From positions 1 through 33,967 of IMG/VR virus record IMGVR_UViG_3300038701_000106: DNA of 33,967 bases; one strand, given 5' to 3'. The notes beneath the pieces are model-generated. The model saw only the letters and a program-made list of their open reading frames with translations. It searched no databases and was not told where the DNA came from. Made by a program: the position numbers and the translations under genes. The DNA is from a virus. Positions 1,391 to 10,624 of the stretch are shown here, in pieces. Every line of letters begins with the position of its first letter. Within the stretch, counting starts at the first letter, position 1.

Positions 1391-1669
1391 CTATCGGTCG
1401 TGATATTGTTTCTCCTGTGCCAATTCCGCTGCCAAGGCTAGGTATGAAATCGCATCAATGATGCTGTCCTCATGATAACCATTGGCGAGGCGGGCCAACT
1501 TCAGTTCACACATTAGCACACACACAAGCCACGGCTCAATCTCATCGCCCAGATGCTGCTCCCAACGATCTGCAATGCGTGCAAAGTTAGCCTGTGGCTT
1601 ACCATACGCATCCTGTCGTGGGCCGTGGATTAGCTTGCTTGCTTCGTCTAGCGCCTGCTGTCTGTTCAT
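1391..1669 (-). CDS. DUF6378-like, all-alpha protein
   Basis: A 92-residue protein with the hallmark N-terminal block L-I-H-G-P-R-Q-x-x-Y-G, then N-F and I-A-x-x-W, a central E-L-K-L-A-R-L, and a C-terminal D-x-I-x-D-x-x-x-Y-L-A-L-A. I recognise this as the DUF6378 type, a small helical family common in phages. The closing D-x-x-x-D-x-x-x-Y-x-x-L pattern resembles MazG-like nucleotide pyrophosphohydrolases, so a role in the nucleotide pool is possible but not shown. It overlaps the next upstream gene by 4 bases, consistent with coupled translation. Confidence 0.75.
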   Translation of the reverse strand: MNRQQALDEASKLIHGPRQDAYGKPQANFARIADRWEQHLGDEIEPWLVCVLMCELKLARLANGYHEDSIIDAISYLALAAELAQEKQYHDR

Positions 1670-2732: not shown

Positions 2733-2897
2733 CCTACAAATTCGTGAACTACAAACTACAAACCCTAAAGGGTTTTTGTAGTTTTTGTAGTAGGGTTCCA
2801 AAACTACAAATATCACTACAAAAACTACAAATACTACAAAAACGCATCCATAACCCATTGAAAACAAACAATATCAGTTTTTGTAGTCATTTGTAGT
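2733..2897. repeat. Cluster of 11 ACTACAAA octamers, iteron-like
   Basis: Between the primase-helicase stop and the next start lies an AT-rich non-coding stretch packed with one octamer. ACTACAAA occurs forward at 2748, 2755, 2803, 2815, 2824 and 2833, with a variant CCTACAAA at 2733. It occurs inverted (TTTGTAGT) at 2775, 2784, 2880 and 2890. Spacing is mostly 9 bases (2815/2824/2833 and 2775/2784), with 7, 10 and 12 elsewhere. The copies at 2755 and 2775 extend into a near-perfect inverted repeat, ACTACAAACCCT against AGGGTTTTTGTAGT, with a two-base centre. Such arrays of short phased repeats beside a replication gene are typical of iteron origins or of operators for a cooperative DNA binder. 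The origin role is inferred. Confidence 0.8.
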
Positions 2898-2898
2898 A

Positions 2899-5106
2899 TC
2901 ACGAAATCTTGCCTTCCTTACCCAAACGCCACAAAAAGCCCTCATTTCGCTCCATAAAGCCATTCTGAATGAGGCTTTTGACTGCCCCAGAATAGGCACT
3001 GTCGGGGTTTGATTTGTCGCTCAACTTGCCAACGGCGTGCTTCTTCAGCACCTCTTCTGAGATGCACCAGCGCGTCCCAACTTCGGGCCAACCAGTGCCA
3101 GACGGGTTCGGCATACCGATGCCATCTGAGCGCAACTGCTGGAATGACTGAATGATGATCTTCTGATTTGTGCCTTGCGGTTTCTTCGCCTTGGCCTCTT
3201 TCATTGTCTCCTCATCGGCTGGCAAGATCGTGCAAGTCGTGACCTGATCGCCATCTTCATCATTTCCCAACTCATGCACATGAAGGGTGAAGCCAAACGG
3301 CGGCTTAGGCTCCATATCGCGTTGCTTGGTGGTCTTAGCAATGCGCAGCGTATCTTCCACTTCAAGTTCAATCTCAGTGTCAGTGGCTGCACGAAGGCTG
3401 CTATGCCCACGCGCGCCCGCTGCGGTGTCCTTGCCGCTGTGATGCACCACCATGATGTGAGCATCGGTGAGATCGCGCAGCACATCCAGATTGCCGATCA
3501 GGCGGGTCATGTCCTCTGGCCCGTTCTCATTACCGCCCGCCATTGCGCGAGATAACGTGTCCACCACGATCATGGCGATGTCACCATGCTGCGCCTTCAC
3601 CTCGCCACACAGCGCCATCAGGGCAGGCATATCCACCTCTGCGCGCAGCAAGTCGATTGGCGATGGCCTGACCAACAGTGGCGCATCAGACACGCCCTTG
3701 CTCTCTCTCAGGGCATACACACGATTGCGGAACGCATTGCCACCTTCAGTCGCAAGATACAACACTGTGCCACCCCTCACACGCGCTCCGTTCCACTCCA
3801 CATTGGCTGCAACGCTGAACGCCATATCCAAGCAGAAGAATGACTTGCCCACGTTAGACGGGCCATATACCACGCTCATCTGCTTGCGGCCAAGCCAGCC
3901 CTTGATGAGATACGATGAGGCAAGCACAGGTTCGGCATCAGAAAGACTGAACACGCGATGCTTTACGATCTGCGATGGCTCTTGCTCTTCCTCTTCCTGC
4001 TGCTCATCAACCCTAACACTAGGTGTTAGACTTTGCTCACTATAGTCAGGGAAATCATACGCATCTTTCAGCACTTGCTGCGCTGTGGGTTTAGCAGGGT
4101 TAATCTCTTCGCCAAACGCGCGCACGGCGGCTGTAAAGTCCCCACGATGCTCGTAATGCACAAACAGATCAAAGGCATCGCCCCAGCAATAAAAGTCTTT
4201 CTGGTTGCCAATCCCTGCCGCAACATCACTGCCTGACAGGCTGACCCAGTGATCGCCAAAGTCCCGCACAGGATAAGACTTTGTTGACTGGTTTGGGCTG
4301 TGCCACTGGTCGGTCGATGCAAGCTGCGTGTAACCATACTTCGCCAACATATCGCTGACGTTATAACGCGCGTTAAACTCATCGACAGGATCGGCCTTTT
4401 CGGGGTTAGCCGCGCGTTTTGCTGCACGCTCCTCTTGCCTGCGCTTGCGATCCGCAGCGGCCTGCACCTCTGCCTGCTCTCGCTGATGCTTGCGGCGCAG
4501 CACCTCACGCTCAAGATAATGGCCGATTGGGTTTAGCCGTTCACCGCCATGCGCGTGAAACTCATAGAAGATCGGGTGATTGTCATCGTCCCGCTTATCA
4601 ACTGGCACGTTTGGCAGGAAGATCGGCTGCCCTGCACGGGCCAGTGCATAGTCGCACTCAATCCCTTCCTTCGCCATGCAATCGAACAGCACAGCCTGAT
4701 AGTCTGTATATACGCCACCGCTTACTGGCTGCTGCATTGGTATCAGCACACGCCATTTGCGATTGTCTGGCTTTGCGCCTGACGATGAATAGATGATGTG
4801 CGAGACATTGCCTAACACGTTGATGACTGCCTGTGAGACATCGGTGAGGCTTGGGTTGCCACTGTCCACATCAATGCAGAGTAGATGAAACACACCGCGC
4901 TGGCGCTGTGCTTCGTGTGACCGCCCATCATAGTCACAGTAGCTAGACGGGATGATAAAGTCTGCCTCACCCTTTTCCTTGCACTGCGGGAACTGGACTA
5001 AATCCCAGATGCCAGCAAGGTCGATGGTGTCATAGTTACCGCCTGTGCTTTTCTTGGTGTCGTTTTGCCCGTGGGCTAATAATAGTTTGACATCATTGGT
5101 CGTCAT
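2899..5106 (-). CDS. Primase-helicase fusion, AEP-like plus RepA-like ATPase
   Basis: A 735-residue replication protein. Residues 60-180 look like an archaeo-eukaryotic primase core: the strand L-L-C-I-D79-V-D81-S-G supplies the paired acidic residues, followed by S-S-S-G-A-K-P-D and W-R-V-L-I-P. Residues 200-235 form a highly charged Lys/Arg/Glu coil. Residues 385-620 are a RecA-fold ATPase of the AAA_25/RepA hexameric helicase type, with Walker A G415-P-S-N-V-G-K-S422, Walker B I-V-V-D516-T and the V-V-H-H-S-G-K segment at 553-559. The C-terminus may be a winged helix. It probably opens the origin and primes synthesis. The start has GAGG 6 bases upstream. The octamer cluster follows its stop directly. 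Confidence 0.85.
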   Translation of the reverse strand: MTTNDVKLLLAHGQNDTKKSTGGNYDTIDLAGIWDLVQFPQCKEKGEADFIIPSSYCDYDGRSHEAQRQRGVFHLLCIDVDSGNPSLTDVSQAVINVLGNVSHIIYSSSGAKPDNRKWRVLIPMQQPVSGGVYTDYQAVLFDCMAKEGIECDYALARAGQPIFLPNVPVDKRDDDNHPIFYEFHAHGGERLNPIGHYLEREVLRRKHQREQAEVQAAADRKRRQEERAAKRAANPEKADPVDEFNARYNVSDMLAKYGYTQLASTDQWHSPNQSTKSYPVRDFGDHWVSLSGSDVAAGIGNQKDFYCWGDAFDLFVHYEHRGDFTAAVRAFGEEINPAKPTAQQVLKDAYDFPDYSEQSLTPSVRVDEQQEEEEQEPSQIVKHRVFSLSDAEPVLASSYLIKGWLGRKQMSVVYGPSNVGKSFFCLDMAFSVAANVEWNGARVRGGTVLYLATEGGNAFRNRVYALRESKGVSDAPLLVRPSPIDLLRAEVDMPALMALCGEVKAQHGDIAMIVVDTLSRAMAGGNENGPEDMTRLIGNLDVLRDLTDAHIMVVHHSGKDTAAGARGHSSLRAATDTEIELEVEDTLRIAKTTKQRDMEPKPPFGFTLHVHELGNDEDGDQVTTCTILPADEETMKEAKAKKPQGTNQKIIIQSFQQLRSDGIGMPNPSGTGWPEVGTRWCISEEVLKKHAVGKLSDKSNPDSAYSGAVKSLIQNGFMERNEGFLWRLGKEGKIS

Positions 5107-5209: not shown

Positions 5210-5821
5210 TCAGAAGGGCAGAGCGTCATCCAGATCGGCATTGGCAGGCGCAGGGCTTGCCGCTGCGAATGGATCGCTGCCTGCCGTGCCACCGACTGTG
5301 TAGCCATCAGTGGCCGCAAATGGATCGCTCTGCTGCATCTCAGCCAGTTCCAACACTTGCACAGCGCGCAGGCGCAGTGACACGCCATTCACCGATCCTG
5401 TGTTGTAAGGCACAAGCGTGACTGCCACGTTGACCTTGCTGCCCGTGGTCAGCATGAAATCGTCAGGCATGGGGTTTTTCTTGGCATCGACCTGACGCGG
5501 TGGCTGCGTCTTTTCTGTGCCATACGCGCCCTTCAGCTTGGCCTTACCGATGATGCCATCGTCTGTCTTTTTATATGGCAGATTAGCAGGCTGTTCAGGC
5601 CAGTTCTTCTTGGTGTCTTTCGCCTTGGCTTCAGTCCATGCCTGCAAGCACAGTTGGTGCAGTTTCTTGGCTTCATCTTCAGGCATGACAAATTGCATTT
5701 CATATGCCGCGCCATCATCCATCGGATCACATGGCACAGATTTCATTTCGCCGCTGTCAAACTTGTATGTGCGATTGAGGCGTGGATAACGTGCGGTTGC
5801 GTTCATTACGATGTGTTGCAT
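5210..5821 (-). CDS. Single-stranded DNA-binding protein, Enc34/DUF2815-like
   Basis: A 203-residue protein of the phage DUF2815/Enc34-type ssDNA-binding family in length and layout. The N-terminal strand pattern reads A-R-Y-P-R-L-N-R-T-Y. A central K-x-x-D-G-I-I-G-K-A-K-L block follows, then P-M-P-D-D-F-M-L-T-T-G-S-K-V-N-V and a final OB-like strand set. The C-terminus is a flexible acidic tail ending in D-D-A-L-P-F, the tip that SSBs use to recruit partner proteins. The tail also contains two copies of S-D-P-F-A-A. It lies between the exonuclease and the primase-helicase. AAGGAG sits 9 bases before the ATG. It should coat single strands during replication and recombination. Confidence 0.8.
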   Translation of the reverse strand: MQHIVMNATARYPRLNRTYKFDSGEMKSVPCDPMDDGAAYEMQFVMPEDEAKKLHQLCLQAWTEAKAKDTKKNWPEQPANLPYKKTDDGIIGKAKLKGAYGTEKTQPPRQVDAKKNPMPDDFMLTTGSKVNVAVTLVPYNTGSVNGVSLRLRAVQVLELAEMQQSDPFAATDGYTVGGTAGSDPFAAASPAPANADLDDALPF

Positions 5822-5833
5822 TTCTCTTTCTCC

Positions 5834-6637
5834 TTATGCAAACGCTTCACTTGCATCATCTAACAGCCACGCAGGCTTGCCGATGACGTTCACTTCGGGC
5901 CAGCCAGTGGTGAAGTCACCACTATCTTGCGCACGCTTGATCTGGTCAAGAGTGAGCATCACCTGATTTTTGGCCCATTTCAGGTATTCCATGCTTAAAG
6001 TGTGGATCGCCACCGCGTATGGCGGCTCTTTCTCCACAGCAATAAATGCGAATTGCTGACAGCCCAAGCCCTCAAGTTCAGTCGCTGCCATTAGGTAAAA
6101 ATACGCCTGTAAATCATACCCAAAGCCACGCACCGATTTGGCAAAGCCACGCGGCGATGCGTCCTGTGTTGTCTTGAGGTCAAGCACAGCGCGCTCTGGA
6201 AGCAGGGCATCTGGGCGGCACTTGATGGTCAAGCCAGTGTGCGGGCAAGTGTTGACGATCGACTGCTCCTTGATGCAGGTCGGGTCGTTCAGCATACGCT
6301 CCACACGCGGTGTCATCATCACGCTTTCAGCAACGGCCATAGCAAGGTCATAATCACTCTCTGTGAGTAACACAGCGCCAATGCTGTCAGCCTCTTCCTT
6401 GGCCTCTGTCCATGCCTTGCCGCGCCGTGTCTCTGGCCCCCGCTTTACGAGGTTATGCAGATCATCACGCTCAAGACACGCGGCATGGATAGCCGTGCCA
6501 ATGTCTAGTGTAGGCGATGCCTTGTATCGCTTGTTCTTCCAGTGCGCGATTGATTTCGCGTGGACAATCTTCACATCGGACGCGCTGATGCCATCGAGTG
6601 CGTGATATTGCTCATTGGTTAGGTCATCTCTAATCAT
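5834..6637 (-). CDS. PD-(D/E)XK exonuclease, RecE/YqaJ-like
   Basis: A 267-residue protein of the phage PDDEXK-like (DUF3799/RecE C-terminal) exonuclease type. The N-terminus L-T-N-E-x-Y-H-A-L-D-G-I-S-A-S-D is characteristic. The catalytic elements follow in order: G-T-A-I-H51-A, E124, P142-D143 inside K-C-R-P-D-A-L, and D153-L-K155 in V-L-D-L-K-T-T, then the Y-D-L-Q177-A-Y-F-Y helix. Such enzymes resect double-stranded ends to leave 3' single strands for annealing. Its neighbours are an SSB and a Hjc-like nuclease, so the phage carries its own recombination set. No Red-beta, Erf or RecT-like annealing protein is visible, so the SSB or a host protein may supply pairing. Confidence 0.85.
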   Translation of the reverse strand: MIRDDLTNEQYHALDGISASDVKIVHAKSIAHWKNKRYKASPTLDIGTAIHAACLERDDLHNLVKRGPETRRGKAWTEAKEEADSIGAVLLTESDYDLAMAVAESVMMTPRVERMLNDPTCIKEQSIVNTCPHTGLTIKCRPDALLPERAVLDLKTTQDASPRGFAKSVRGFGYDLQAYFYLMAATELEGLGCQQFAFIAVEKEPPYAVAIHTLSMEYLKWAKNQVMLTLDQIKRAQDSGDFTTGWPEVNVIGKPAWLLDDASEAFA

Positions 6638-6969
6638 GTCTTGTCCTTAAACCAGCCGCACCACACCAAAAACGCCTCATACGTCACCAGTGGCATCACG
6701 ACTAATGTTTCCTTGCGATCATCACGCACAAACAGCAGATCAGCGTCATCCTGATCCAGTGCGTCATAGAGAGTGCCAAACCCGCGCGCTCTGCGCTTGC
6801 ACTCTGCCATTAGGCCCAGCAATGGCCCAATCTTGATGTCGCCCTTGTAATTGCCCTTTACTGCGCCCGATAGTGGGATGCGTTCTGCGGGAATGTCACG
6901 GGCTTTGTGCCAGTTGACCACCTCTCGCTCAAAGTTTGCACCCTTGTCTCTGCTTGCTTTACCGCTCAT
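6634..6969 (-). CDS. Hjc-like Holliday junction resolvase or nuclease
   Basis: A 111-residue protein with a small PD-(D/E)XK core of the archaeal-Hjc-like type seen in phages. It has K-G-A-N-F-E14-R-E near the N-terminus, G-D44-I in the second motif and A-E56-C-K58-R in the third. The ATG at 6969 is preferred to the GTG at 6972 because it overlaps the TGA of the preceding gene (TGATG) and sits about 7 bases after AAAGG. It overlaps the exonuclease start by 4 bases. Its likely role is resolving branched DNA before packaging or during recombination. A VRR-NUC-like nuclease is an alternative within the same fold. Confidence 0.75.
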   Translation of the reverse strand: MSGKASRDKGANFEREVVNWHKARDIPAERIPLSGAVKGNYKGDIKIGPLLGLMAECKRRARGFGTLYDALDQDDADLLFVRDDRKETLVVMPLVTYEAFLVWCGWFKDKT

Positions 6970-7130
6970 CACTCTGCCTTTGGCTGTTCTGCATGAATAC
7001 CATTGCGCGCTGCCTCATCTAGCGCCGCCATACGCACGAACTGACCTAGTGTAAGACCCTTGCGGTGCGCCATGATTTCGATGGCTGACATCTGGGCATC
7101 ATTAACCCGAAACCTGATTTCTTTATCCAT
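6969..7130 (-). CDS. Ribbon-helix-helix DNA-binding protein
   Basis: A 53-residue protein starting at the ATG at 7130, with AGGAG 8 bases upstream. The in-frame upstream codons to 7187 lack a comparable site. It has the ribbon-helix-helix layout: a short strand I-R-F-R-V, helix D-A-Q-M-S-A-I-E-I-M-A-H-R-K-G, then L-T-L-G-Q-F-V-R-M-A-A. This resembles MobC/Arc-type repressors. It is the first gene of the leftward replication operon and lies beside the divergent control region, so autoregulation of that region is the natural guess. Operator sites are not proven. Confidence 0.75.
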   Translation of the reverse strand: MDKEIRFRVNDAQMSAIEIMAHRKGLTLGQFVRMAALDEAARNGIHAEQPKAE

Positions 7131-7274
7131 TACTGGTTCTCCTGTTACTTGTTTGACCACGCTAGACCGCACCGCGATACATTGCAAGTGGAAAATTTGC
7201 GTAAAAAGATGTTGACAGGTGATTTTCTATCTGCGCATCATGTGTCCATCAAAAGCAAGTTATGAGGCAAAACT
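7131..7274. promoter_or_regulatory. Divergent early control region
   Basis: The 144 bases between the leftward RHH gene and the rightward small-gene operon must hold the promoters for both early operons. A rightward -35 box TTGACA is exact at 7212-7217, with a fair -10 CATCAT at 7236-7241 (18-base spacer). Ribosome site GAGG at 7264-7267 serves the ATG at 7275. Leftward, TTGCAA followed after 17 bases by TAGCGT is only a weak candidate. No convincing long operator palindrome was seen by eye. Confidence 0.6.
7212..7241 (+). promoter_or_regulatory. Sigma70-like promoter for rightward operon
   Basis: The -35 hexamer TTGACA matches the consensus exactly. The -10 candidate CATCAT matches TATAAT at four of six positions with an 18-base spacer. 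It faces the twelve-gene plus-strand operon starting at 7275. The position is right for an early promoter read by host RNA polymerase. Confidence 0.55.
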
Positions 7275-7740: not shown

Positions 7741-7921
7741 CAGCGGCGATCCGACATACGCGACCATTCCATATGAGACACGCGAACAGTGCGAGTTTGC
7801 AATGGTGCTAAACGCCGATGTATGGGCCGACAACGGCCTGATGAGCCAATGCTATGTCACACACCTTGTAACATCATCATCGCCGCCTGTGCCGCGCCCA
7901 GAGGGGCTGACAGATGAGTAG
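7700..7921 (+). CDS. Small secreted or membrane-anchored hypothetical
   Basis: A 73-residue protein with a hydrophobic N-terminus (M-I-A-T-Y-L-T-L-L-I-V-A-S) that could be an uncleaved or short signal segment. A polar domain follows, with two Cys (in E-Q-C-E-F and S-Q-C-Y-V) that could form a periplasmic disulphide. GGAG lies 7 bases before the ATG. It overlaps both neighbours, which is normal in this compact operon. An envelope location is inferred. Confidence 0.55.
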   Translation: MIATYLTLLIVASDSGDPTYATIPYETREQCEFAMVLNADVWADNGLMSQCYVTHLVTSSSPPVPRPEGLTDE

Positions 7922-8147
7922 GTGGTGGTTTCAGGTCATGCGGCACAGAGACGATGCTGGACAGCCCTATGTCGCTATCCATGAGGCTTACAGCCTGCAC
8001 GATGGACAGATAGGGTGGACAGCCAAGCCAGTGCCTATTGAGGAAGATACTGTGGATGACCTGTGCCGCACGCTGCACGACATCCTAAACGACATAGAGC
8101 GTCATGGTGTGCGTGACGTTGAAACATGGGAGAGGGTGGATGAGTAA
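7914..8147 (+). CDS. Hypothetical, paralogue of 8777-9004
   Basis: A 77-residue acidic protein. The stretch Y-V-A-I-H-E-A-Y, then G-W-T, and the C-terminal helix D-I-x-N-D-I-E-R-H-G-V-R-D align with the gene at 8777-9004. That gene has Y-Y-A-I-H-E-Y-Y, G-W-T and D-I-E-K-H-G-V-K-D at matching places. The pair therefore arose by duplication inside this operon. The family is not one I can name. The fold looks like a strand-rich N-terminus plus one C-terminal helix. Confidence 0.65.
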   Translation: MSRWWFQVMRHRDDAGQPYVAIHEAYSLHDGQIGWTAKPVPIEEDTVDDLCRTLHDILNDIERHGVRDVETWERVDE

Positions 8148-8587: not shown

Positions 8588-8784
8588 TGACTGATACGCA
8601 GCATCCTTGGCAGTTGTCATGCACAGATTGCCCTGATTGCGGCAAGCGGATGCACGAGCAAGTTTGTGTAGACAAATCATGCAGTGTTTGTCTTGGCGTT
8701 CTTGATGGCTACCGATGCTCTGTTTGTGGGTGGTCTGGTGACGCGGAAGACCTCGCAGAACTTACAGGAGGCAATGATGGCTAA
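8587..8784 (+). CDS. Zinc-ribbon protein
   Basis: A 65-residue protein dominated by Cys pairs: C-T-D-C-P-D-C-G, then C-V-D-K-S-C-S-V-C, and C-S-V-C-G-W near the end. The pairs are enough for two zinc sites. The ATG at 8587 lies 7 bases from AGGAG; the ATG at 8584 would be only 4 bases away. It may bind nucleic acid or host polymerase like other small phage zinc ribbons, but that is only a family-level expectation. Confidence 0.65.
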   Translation: MTDTQHPWQLSCTDCPDCGKRMHEQVCVDKSCSVCLGVLDGYRCSVCGWSGDAEDLAELTGGNDG

Positions 8785-9004
8785 CAACACATGGCACTAC
8801 CAATTGATGTATCACAAAGTTGATATGAAAAGTTTTGTCGATGGCGGCTACTACGCAATCCACGAATACTATCCAGACAGGGATGGTGACGGGTGGACTG
8901 AAGCCCCTGTGGTTGTCGATGGTGAAAGCGTGGAGGAGGTCAAGCAGGTGCTACAGGCAATGCTTGAAGATATCGAGAAACATGGGGTCAAGGATTATGA
9001 CTAA
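8777..9004 (+). CDS. Hypothetical, paralogue of 7914-8147
   Basis: A 75-residue acidic protein. The ATG at 8777 sits 5 bases after AGGAGG and overlaps the zinc-ribbon stop. The central Y-Y-A-I-H-E-Y-Y, the G-W-T-E-A-P segment and the C-terminal E-D-I-E-K-H-G-V-K-D repeat the plan of the gene at 7914-8147. This copy has an extra D-R-D-G-D-G segment of calcium-loop appearance. Keeping both copies in a compact operon suggests they act on different partners, or as a heterodimer. Function unknown. Confidence 0.65.
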   Translation: MANNTWHYQLMYHKVDMKSFVDGGYYAIHEYYPDRDGDGWTEAPVVVDGESVEEVKQVLQAMLEDIEKHGVKDYD

Positions 9005-10105: not shown

Positions 10106-10585
10106 TTAGATGCGCCCGAAGTATTGCACTTCAGCCTTTTTTCGTGCGGCCACCGCATCCTCAAGGCTGTCGAACAAACCGAGGTAGACATTTTTATACG
10201 AAACAGTTATTTGGGCAACCCATTTCTTGGCTGCCTTGTGACGCGTCACCCCAGTGTGGCCACTGGTGTTGTTTTTTGATCTAAGGCAATTTCTGGCATT
10301 CAGGGTTTCATCTGCGATGCGCAAATTTTCGATCCTATTGTCTAATCTATCACCATTTATGTGATCTATAAGGCCATCTGGCATTTCACCATAATAGTGA
10401 AACCACGCGAGCCTATGGGTGCGATACTGCTTACCCTTGAATACTGCCCTGTAATATCCCTTGCCATCTATGTTTGCGCCAAACCTAGAGCCAACCTTAG
10501 ACCTGTTGCTCAAACTCTTTTTCCACAAGAGAATGCCAGTCTTGGGATTATAAGATACACACTCACGAAAATCATTTATATCCAT
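10106..10585 (-). CDS. HNH homing endonuclease with AP2 domain
   Basis: A 159-residue protein from the ATG at 10585, placed about 6 bases after AAAGGTGG. It has the free-standing homing endonuclease plan: an NUMOD-like start (Y-N-P-K-T-G-I-L-L-W-K), H-R-L-A-W, then the HNH core L-I-D-H-I-N-G-D-R-L-D-N-R-I-E-N-L-R. A C-terminal AP2 DNA-binding domain follows (N-N-T-S-G-H-T-G-V, W-V-A-Q-I, Y-L-G-L-F-D). It is a selfish element sitting beside the endolysin gene, and a relative occurs at 31255-31833. No host-gene disruption is seen. Confidence 0.9.
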   Translation of the reverse strand: MDINDFRECVSYNPKTGILLWKKSLSNRSKVGSRFGANIDGKGYYRAVFKGKQYRTHRLAWFHYYGEMPDGLIDHINGDRLDNRIENLRIADETLNARNCLRSKNNTSGHTGVTRHKAAKKWVAQITVSYKNVYLGLFDSLEDAVAARKKAEVQYFGRI

Positions 10586-10624
10586 CATACACCACCTTTC
10601 GAAGTGTATCATGCTCAATAAATG

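Follow-up and report, generated by a model that had tools for sequence, protein, structure and literature searches.

Iteron/initiator origins are known from P4 alpha, lambda O, RSF1010, pRN1 and PLE RepA. In the P4 alpha protein a single polypeptide carries the primase, the helicase and the C-terminal winged helix, which binds origin repeats, while in RSF1010 these roles are split among RepC, RepA and RepB', with an oriV made of iterons and of ssi hairpins for priming (PMC4234260). For pRN1 ORF904 and phage BIP-1, a stem-loop origin lies just 3' of a primase-helicase-winged-helix gene, and its structure is kept while its sequence diverges (PMC4234260). PLE satellites exchange the origin and the DNA-binding domain of the cognate RepA_N initiator as a module, an exchange linked to escape from an origin-directed nuclease and probably made under its attack (PMC8263062). 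Lambda O is a phage initiator that acts on several iterons beside AT-rich DNA (PMC7466680), and a plasmid-borne lambda ori acts as a decoy that slows lambda (PMC4488673). Iterons of typical plasmids measure 17-22 bp and stand in direct orientation (PMC4980987).

Here we analyze a virus contig of 33,967 bases (the whole stretch, hereafter the window) that represents a CRP-822-type roseophage. This family was described in 2025 as lytic phages without an integrase (PMC12629253); neither repeats nor iterons turn up in a term search of that article, whose genome-architecture section describes no origin. As iteron origins do, the window holds clustered short repeats in one non-coding region with an AT-rich region at the array, and co-variation together with a predicted fold points to a cognate winged-helix initiator. 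The departure from typical plasmid iterons lies in the units, which are 8-9 bp long and occur in both orientations.

Results

A primase-helicase gene and the array behind it

The window encodes a 735-aa protein (2899..5106, minus strand; hereafter PH) composed of an N-terminal putative primase, a RepA-type hexameric helicase and a C-terminal winged helix. Both sequence and fold relate the helicase domain (AAA_25, aa 395-561) to RSF1010 RepA, and PH has no match to P4 alpha in PHROG or Pfam. We regard the N-terminal domain as a putative primase because of its motif-like conserved residues, an Asp-x-Asp and other motif-like positions; Pfam and the PDB yielded no primase family match for it, no PDB match by sequence being meaningful. 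Upstream in the PH operon lies a Gp2.5/Enc34-type ssDNA-binding protein (5210..5821, minus strand). Other products nearby and further along the window include a NikA-like ribbon-helix-helix protein near the replication genes (6969-7187, minus strand), which is unnamed in CRP phage annotations, a protein resembling an HNH/AP2-type homing endonuclease by eye (10106-10618, minus strand), and a protein that matches Pfam DUF6378 and whose PHROG label 'phosphofructokinase' is doubtful (1391-1669, minus strand).

The non-coding segment 2733..2897, which lies between the PH stop (2899) on one side and the next gene's start (2721) on the other, holds ten exact copies of ACTACAAA, starting at 2748, 2755, 2803, 2815, 2824 and 2833 on the plus strand and at 2775, 2784, 2880 and 2890 on the minus strand, and one single-change copy, CCTACAAA (2733..2740, plus strand). 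Exact counting thus bears out the eleven octamers of the original prediction, seven forward and four inverted with one carrying a single change, as well as its placing of the outermost copy at a ribosome site, since the copy at 2733 touches the Shine-Dalgarno of the gene after the array. The spacing, given there as mostly 9 bases, was wrong; the start-to-start distances are 15, 7, 20, 9, 19, 12, 9, 9, 47 and 10. Read along the PH strand, the array consists of two forward copies adjoining the PH stop codon (2880..2897, minus strand), a 39-bp gap, four reverse copies (2803..2840, plus strand), two forward copies (2775..2791, minus strand), a hairpin core, two reverse copies that overlap by one base (2748..2762, plus strand), and the single copy near the next gene's ribosome site. 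The long near-palindrome that had been described does exist, but two copies, not one, flank its core AAACCCTAAAGGGTTT (2760..2775, without strand) on each side (2748-2762 and 2775-2791).

No exact copy of ACTACAAA occurs elsewhere in the window, as had been noted by eye; six further matches, each with one mismatch, are dispersed through it. With one mismatch allowed, the whole window contains 17 matches against 18.9 expected, and this count is thus not above chance. The clustering is extreme in the proposed comparison of both strands with shuffled sequence: ten exact copies fall within 165 bp, whereas no 8-mer exceeded 3 copies in such a span when the whole window was shuffled 100 times, and the maximum was 4 when the array alone was shuffled 2000 times. 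In each of the five genomes compared, moreover, no other 150 bp are as rich in A and T as the array. GC skew, another check that had been put forward, is monotonic in all five genomes, as expected from the shared direction of most genes; it shows no inflection and is uninformative.

The octamer alone is not diagnostic, because only one of the 84 IMG/VR stretches with ACTACAAA triplets (L162) has a PH-type helicase in the stretch. Five viral contigs (L087, L106, L110, L114 and L124) carry many separate ACTACAAA clusters, roughly every 600-1000 bases, and show no match to a PH-type helicase in the stretch covered; these clusters are seemingly an unrelated use of the octamer.

Relatives keep the layout and change the unit

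The window PH is 81-86% identical to the PH of Roseobacter phages CRP-823, CRP-811, CRP-831, CRP-821 and CRP-822. CRP-823 and CRP-811 carry the ACTACAAA octamer at the same array positions as the window. At the array site of CRP-831 and CRP-821 there is no ACTACAAA; ten copies of (T)GTATAAA stand there in almost exactly the ACTACAAA-type geometry, with start-to-start distances of 8, 19, 9, 19, 12, 10, 9, 46 and 10 against 7, 19, 9, 20, 12, 9, 9, 46 and 10 for the ACTACAAA type. The search for the same array beside the primase-helicase of related phages, which the original prediction had called for, finds it just 3' of PH with the same geometry and with a unit that switches wholesale by lineage. 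The units include ACTACAAA, TGTATAAA, TGTCCTAAA, TGTAGAAA, ATGTGAAA, TGTATGAAA, ATAGGAAA, GTCGGAAA, GGAGGAAA, GTGTAAA, CGTACCA, CGTAACA and TATACCA. Viral contigs supplied 53 nonredundant arrays, of which 46 repeat a 7-mer more often than any of 300 shuffles, and most of the other seven are built of mixed units.

Array loss among PH-bearing close relatives was to count against a functional array, a comparison that needs care because seemingly array-less relatives carry another unit. Such loss is mostly not found, the apparent cases differing in unit but not in layout. There are two exceptions, a true absence in L355, where the locus contains no array, and a remnant in L053, which has only two complete units (1451 onward) behind a PH near-identical to that of neighbors with ten, possibly a real deletion or a repeat collapse in assembly. 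Elsewhere, inserted genes lie between PH and the array, which stands intact on their far side (L227, about 6243-6950; L245, about 2250-2950); one gene of the L227 insert resembles a cytosine methyltransferase. The gene after the array varies among relatives (a 192-aa protein, a DUF6378 protein and others), whereas PH invariably precedes it, either directly or with inserts in between.

The N-terminal domain of PH is itself exchanged among relatives, being Toprim in 13 of 34 (Toprim_3; alignment A1, for example L029 and L050), while the window's group carries another domain with the conserved Asp-x-Asp on the same helicase and winged helix; through these exchanges the array stays with the helicase and the C-terminal domain (CTD). 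Arrays with a central hairpin also follow a RepA-type helicase in Dhillonvirus Pride, where the unit is GCGGGACA, in the Caenibius p1 phage-like plasmid, in pMRAD08, in a Xanthobacter plasmid and in a Pseudorhodobacter replicon. A genome scan found many prophage-borne relatives, mostly in Alphaproteobacteria, with repeated units after the gene. The more distant RepA-helicase phages Jerseyvirus, Mycobacterium Adawi and Vibrio 1244 have no such array.

The C-terminal domain changes together with the unit

Comparison of CRP-823 with CRP-821 locates the switch. Their PH proteins are 96-98% identical over residues 1-640 and 72% identical over 641-735. DNA identity, about 95% up to around codon 625, is 42-85% from there to the end of the array and is back at about 95% within the gene that follows. 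This profile indicates that CTD and array moved as one cassette. When 172 protein segments of CRP-823 were compared, the CTD was the only core segment to track the unit type (100% vs 71%), the other segment that did so being an accessory paralogue found in one type only. This 74-aa protein was judged an accidental match, as the second paralogue absent from the other type. The window encodes two such small acidic paralogues (8777-9001 and 7914-8147, plus strand), one of which occurs only in ACTACAAA-unit phages among the five compared.

The same pattern extends to more distant loci. The window CTD is 64% identical to that of L007, which has the same unit, and 36% identical to that of L011, which has another, against 82-83% for the helicase in both; L007 and L016, with different units, are 90% identical in the helicase and 46% in the CTD. 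Across the set, CTD identity is associated with unit type even between loci of equal helicase identity (partial Mantel r 0.23, 1/1000 permutations). The primase-helicase, the single-stranded DNA-binding protein and the ribbon-helix-helix protein had all been proposed as binders, and the evidence supports the first. The other two, along with the remaining neighbors, were set aside, the CTD alone among core proteins following the unit type. We strongly infer from these comparisons that PH binds the array iterons through its CTD.

The CTD (about aa 640-735; 2902..3189, minus strand), our proposed iteron binder, is modeled by AlphaFold as a confident winged helix (mean pLDDT 87). A fold search returned generic winged helices only, and we claim no specific fold relative because the best Z, 8.2 for the ORC1 winged helix, is at background level. 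When CTD residues were scanned against unit bases in 34 representatives, residue 702 with unit position 2 ranked first (z 12.9, next 9.3). The predicted recognition helix (aa 701-714; 2965..3006, minus strand) has this residue at its N-terminal end (codon 702 at 3001-3003). All 16 representatives with Arg, Lys or His at 702 have G at unit position 2. Of the 18 with Asp, Ser, Asn, Thr or Ala, 17 have C or A there, among them the window (Asp702 with C), and the one violation is L226 (Ala with G). Fisher tests of the association between a basic residue and G give 1.5e-8, and 5.7e-8 on distinct types. These values overstate independence and serve as guides only, since the register and the orientation of the units were chosen manually and the types have common ancestors; the first place of residue 702 in the ranking of all residues is more robust. 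A first form of the code, in which Ser or Asn reads A, failed when new loci showed Ser with C. The surviving rule, basic with G and other residues with a base that is not G, holds in 11 of 12 loci that were not used in forming the idea. Arg-to-G contact is the commonest readout in known protein-DNA complexes.

A covarying hairpin and a candidate IHF site

The inner iteron pairs flank a core of CC[TTTA or TATA]GG in 70 of 79 arrays. While this core is kept, the outer pairs of the hairpin covary: of 50 distinct cores, 43 have a Watson-Crick third pair, counted from the loop, where chance would give 16.8; all four pair types occur there, and the stem changes on both sides. Between the first two iteron groups, relatives retain a block that fits the IHF consensus WATCAANNNNTTR (N4 variable). 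Full matches number 10 in 53 arrays against about 1 expected, lie in a homologous place and depend on clade. The window's own version, TTTCAATGGGTTA (2851..2863, minus strand), agrees at 8 of 9 positions, which is not significant in the window alone, and we treat it as a candidate IHF site.

Discussion

The array, its conserved geometry, the joint switching of unit and CTD, the recombination of the cassette and the covariation of the hairpin can be read from the genomes themselves. The array likely functions as a replication origin, and we consider it probable that it does so as an iteron origin that is bound by the PH winged helix and melted, with the helicase loaded and primers made by PH. 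Copies of PH would bind the ACTACAAA iterons through the C-terminal winged helix, with unit base 2 read by Asp702 at the N-terminal end of the recognition helix, and would come to lie on opposite strands around the AT-rich hairpin. An IHF bend at 2851-2863 might aid this complex. Bound PH would then melt the DNA or extrude the hairpin, the RepA-type hexameric helicase would be loaded on the single strands, and the fused N-terminal domain would prime, with CTD and array acting as one exchangeable specificity cassette. Physical binding, melting, priming and use as an origin are what we infer from patterns of conservation and co-variation.

The original prediction had offered an origin, a control region of the leftward operon, or both, and comparative evidence (linkage to PH, geometry, co-change of unit and CTD, hairpin covariation) favors the origin. 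An operator cluster, in which PH or another regulator would sit on the repeats to control the leftward operon and not the start of replication, fits the position of the array between two genes of one operon, the copy at the next gene's Shine-Dalgarno and the fact that initiators often regulate too. We nevertheless judge it unlikely, because the array follows PH across very diverged phages with its geometry kept and has survived insertions; because its unit changes with the PH winged helix while the downstream gene varies; and because the region holds no sigma-70 promoter-like site and the helicase is of RSF1010 RepA type. The covarying hairpin and the extreme AT content likewise suit an origin. 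The iterons could nonetheless serve control besides initiation.

An incompatibility, copy-control or partition element, acting by initiator titration or genome pairing while the true origin lies elsewhere, is still less probable. Plasmid iterons have such roles, and co-switching with the CTD would be expected likewise, but five complete or near-complete genomes contain no second array of matching unit, and lytic phages without an integrase (PMC12629253) would need little partition or copy control. We give very little weight to an RNA element, whether a terminator, a riboswitch-like structure or a translational control hairpin in the transcript of PH and the next gene. The array strand does fold far better than shuffles (z -5.8), with terminator-like matches at the hairpin core, but no Rfam family reaches threshold in the region, GC-rich unit types such as CGTACCA lack a T run after the stem, and the units, present on both strands well away from the stem, covary with a DNA-binding domain. 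A neutral tandem repeat or assembly artifact, for which one could cite the expansion of short repeats by slippage, is already contradicted by the two orientations, the fixed geometry, the conserved spacers and the recurrence of the array in independently isolated phages, where its neighbors are 80-97% identical.

Should the replication-origin reading be right, it would assign an origin to the abundant marine CRP-822-type phages and explain why the helicase gene always carries a non-coding tail; cognate pairing of CTD and repeats would then be readable from sequence alone. Some 30 matched initiator-iteron pairs constitute a natural data set for reading and predicting DNA recognition by winged helices. 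CRP-823 and CRP-821 were isolated on the same host strain, and matched swaps between two such closely similar isolates make phage replication compatibility directly testable. More tentatively, we suggest that a large phage and prophage lineage carries an initiator-origin cassette of winged helix, iterons and hairpin that has diversified into dozens of mutually exclusive types through recombination and a recognition-helix code. These types might represent replication-compatibility groups, driven by competing co-infecting phages, satellites or origin-directed nucleases.

Comparison with described systems places this locus among several of them. Like P4 alpha, PH joins a helicase to a C-terminal winged helix, and its N-terminal domain may be a primase; its helicase, however, is RSF1010 RepA-like and the N-terminal domain in the window is not Toprim. 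The P4 helicase is of another class, and in P4 ori and crr are separate sites, whereas the window units lie directly 3' of the gene and around a hairpin. The PH helicase is homologous to RSF1010 RepA, itself an iteron-origin helicase, but here three functions would be joined in one 735-aa polypeptide, no separate RepC-like initiator was found among the PH neighbors, and short units in both orientations replace the long direct repeats of oriV. With pRN1 and BIP-1 the locus shares a hairpin just 3' of the replication gene and a structure kept while sequence diverges; theirs is an SF3 helicase with prim-pol and no iterons, and here the helicase is RecA-type and iterons dominate. As in PLE, the proposed binding domain and the array repeats are swapped together, although the PLE initiator belongs to an unrelated family, uses semi-palindromic iterons of ~30 bp and has no fused helicase or primase. 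Lambda O resembles PH as a phage-encoded initiator, proposed in our case, with several iterons and AT-rich DNA, but its 19-bp inverted-repeat iterons lie inside the O gene, and helicase and primase come from the host. The system would work like P4 alpha, RSF1010, pRN1/BIP-1 and PLE and, by the tests made, is a member of none. What is new is the fused RepA-helicase form, the hairpin-plus-iteron layout, the cassette swaps and the residue-base rule.
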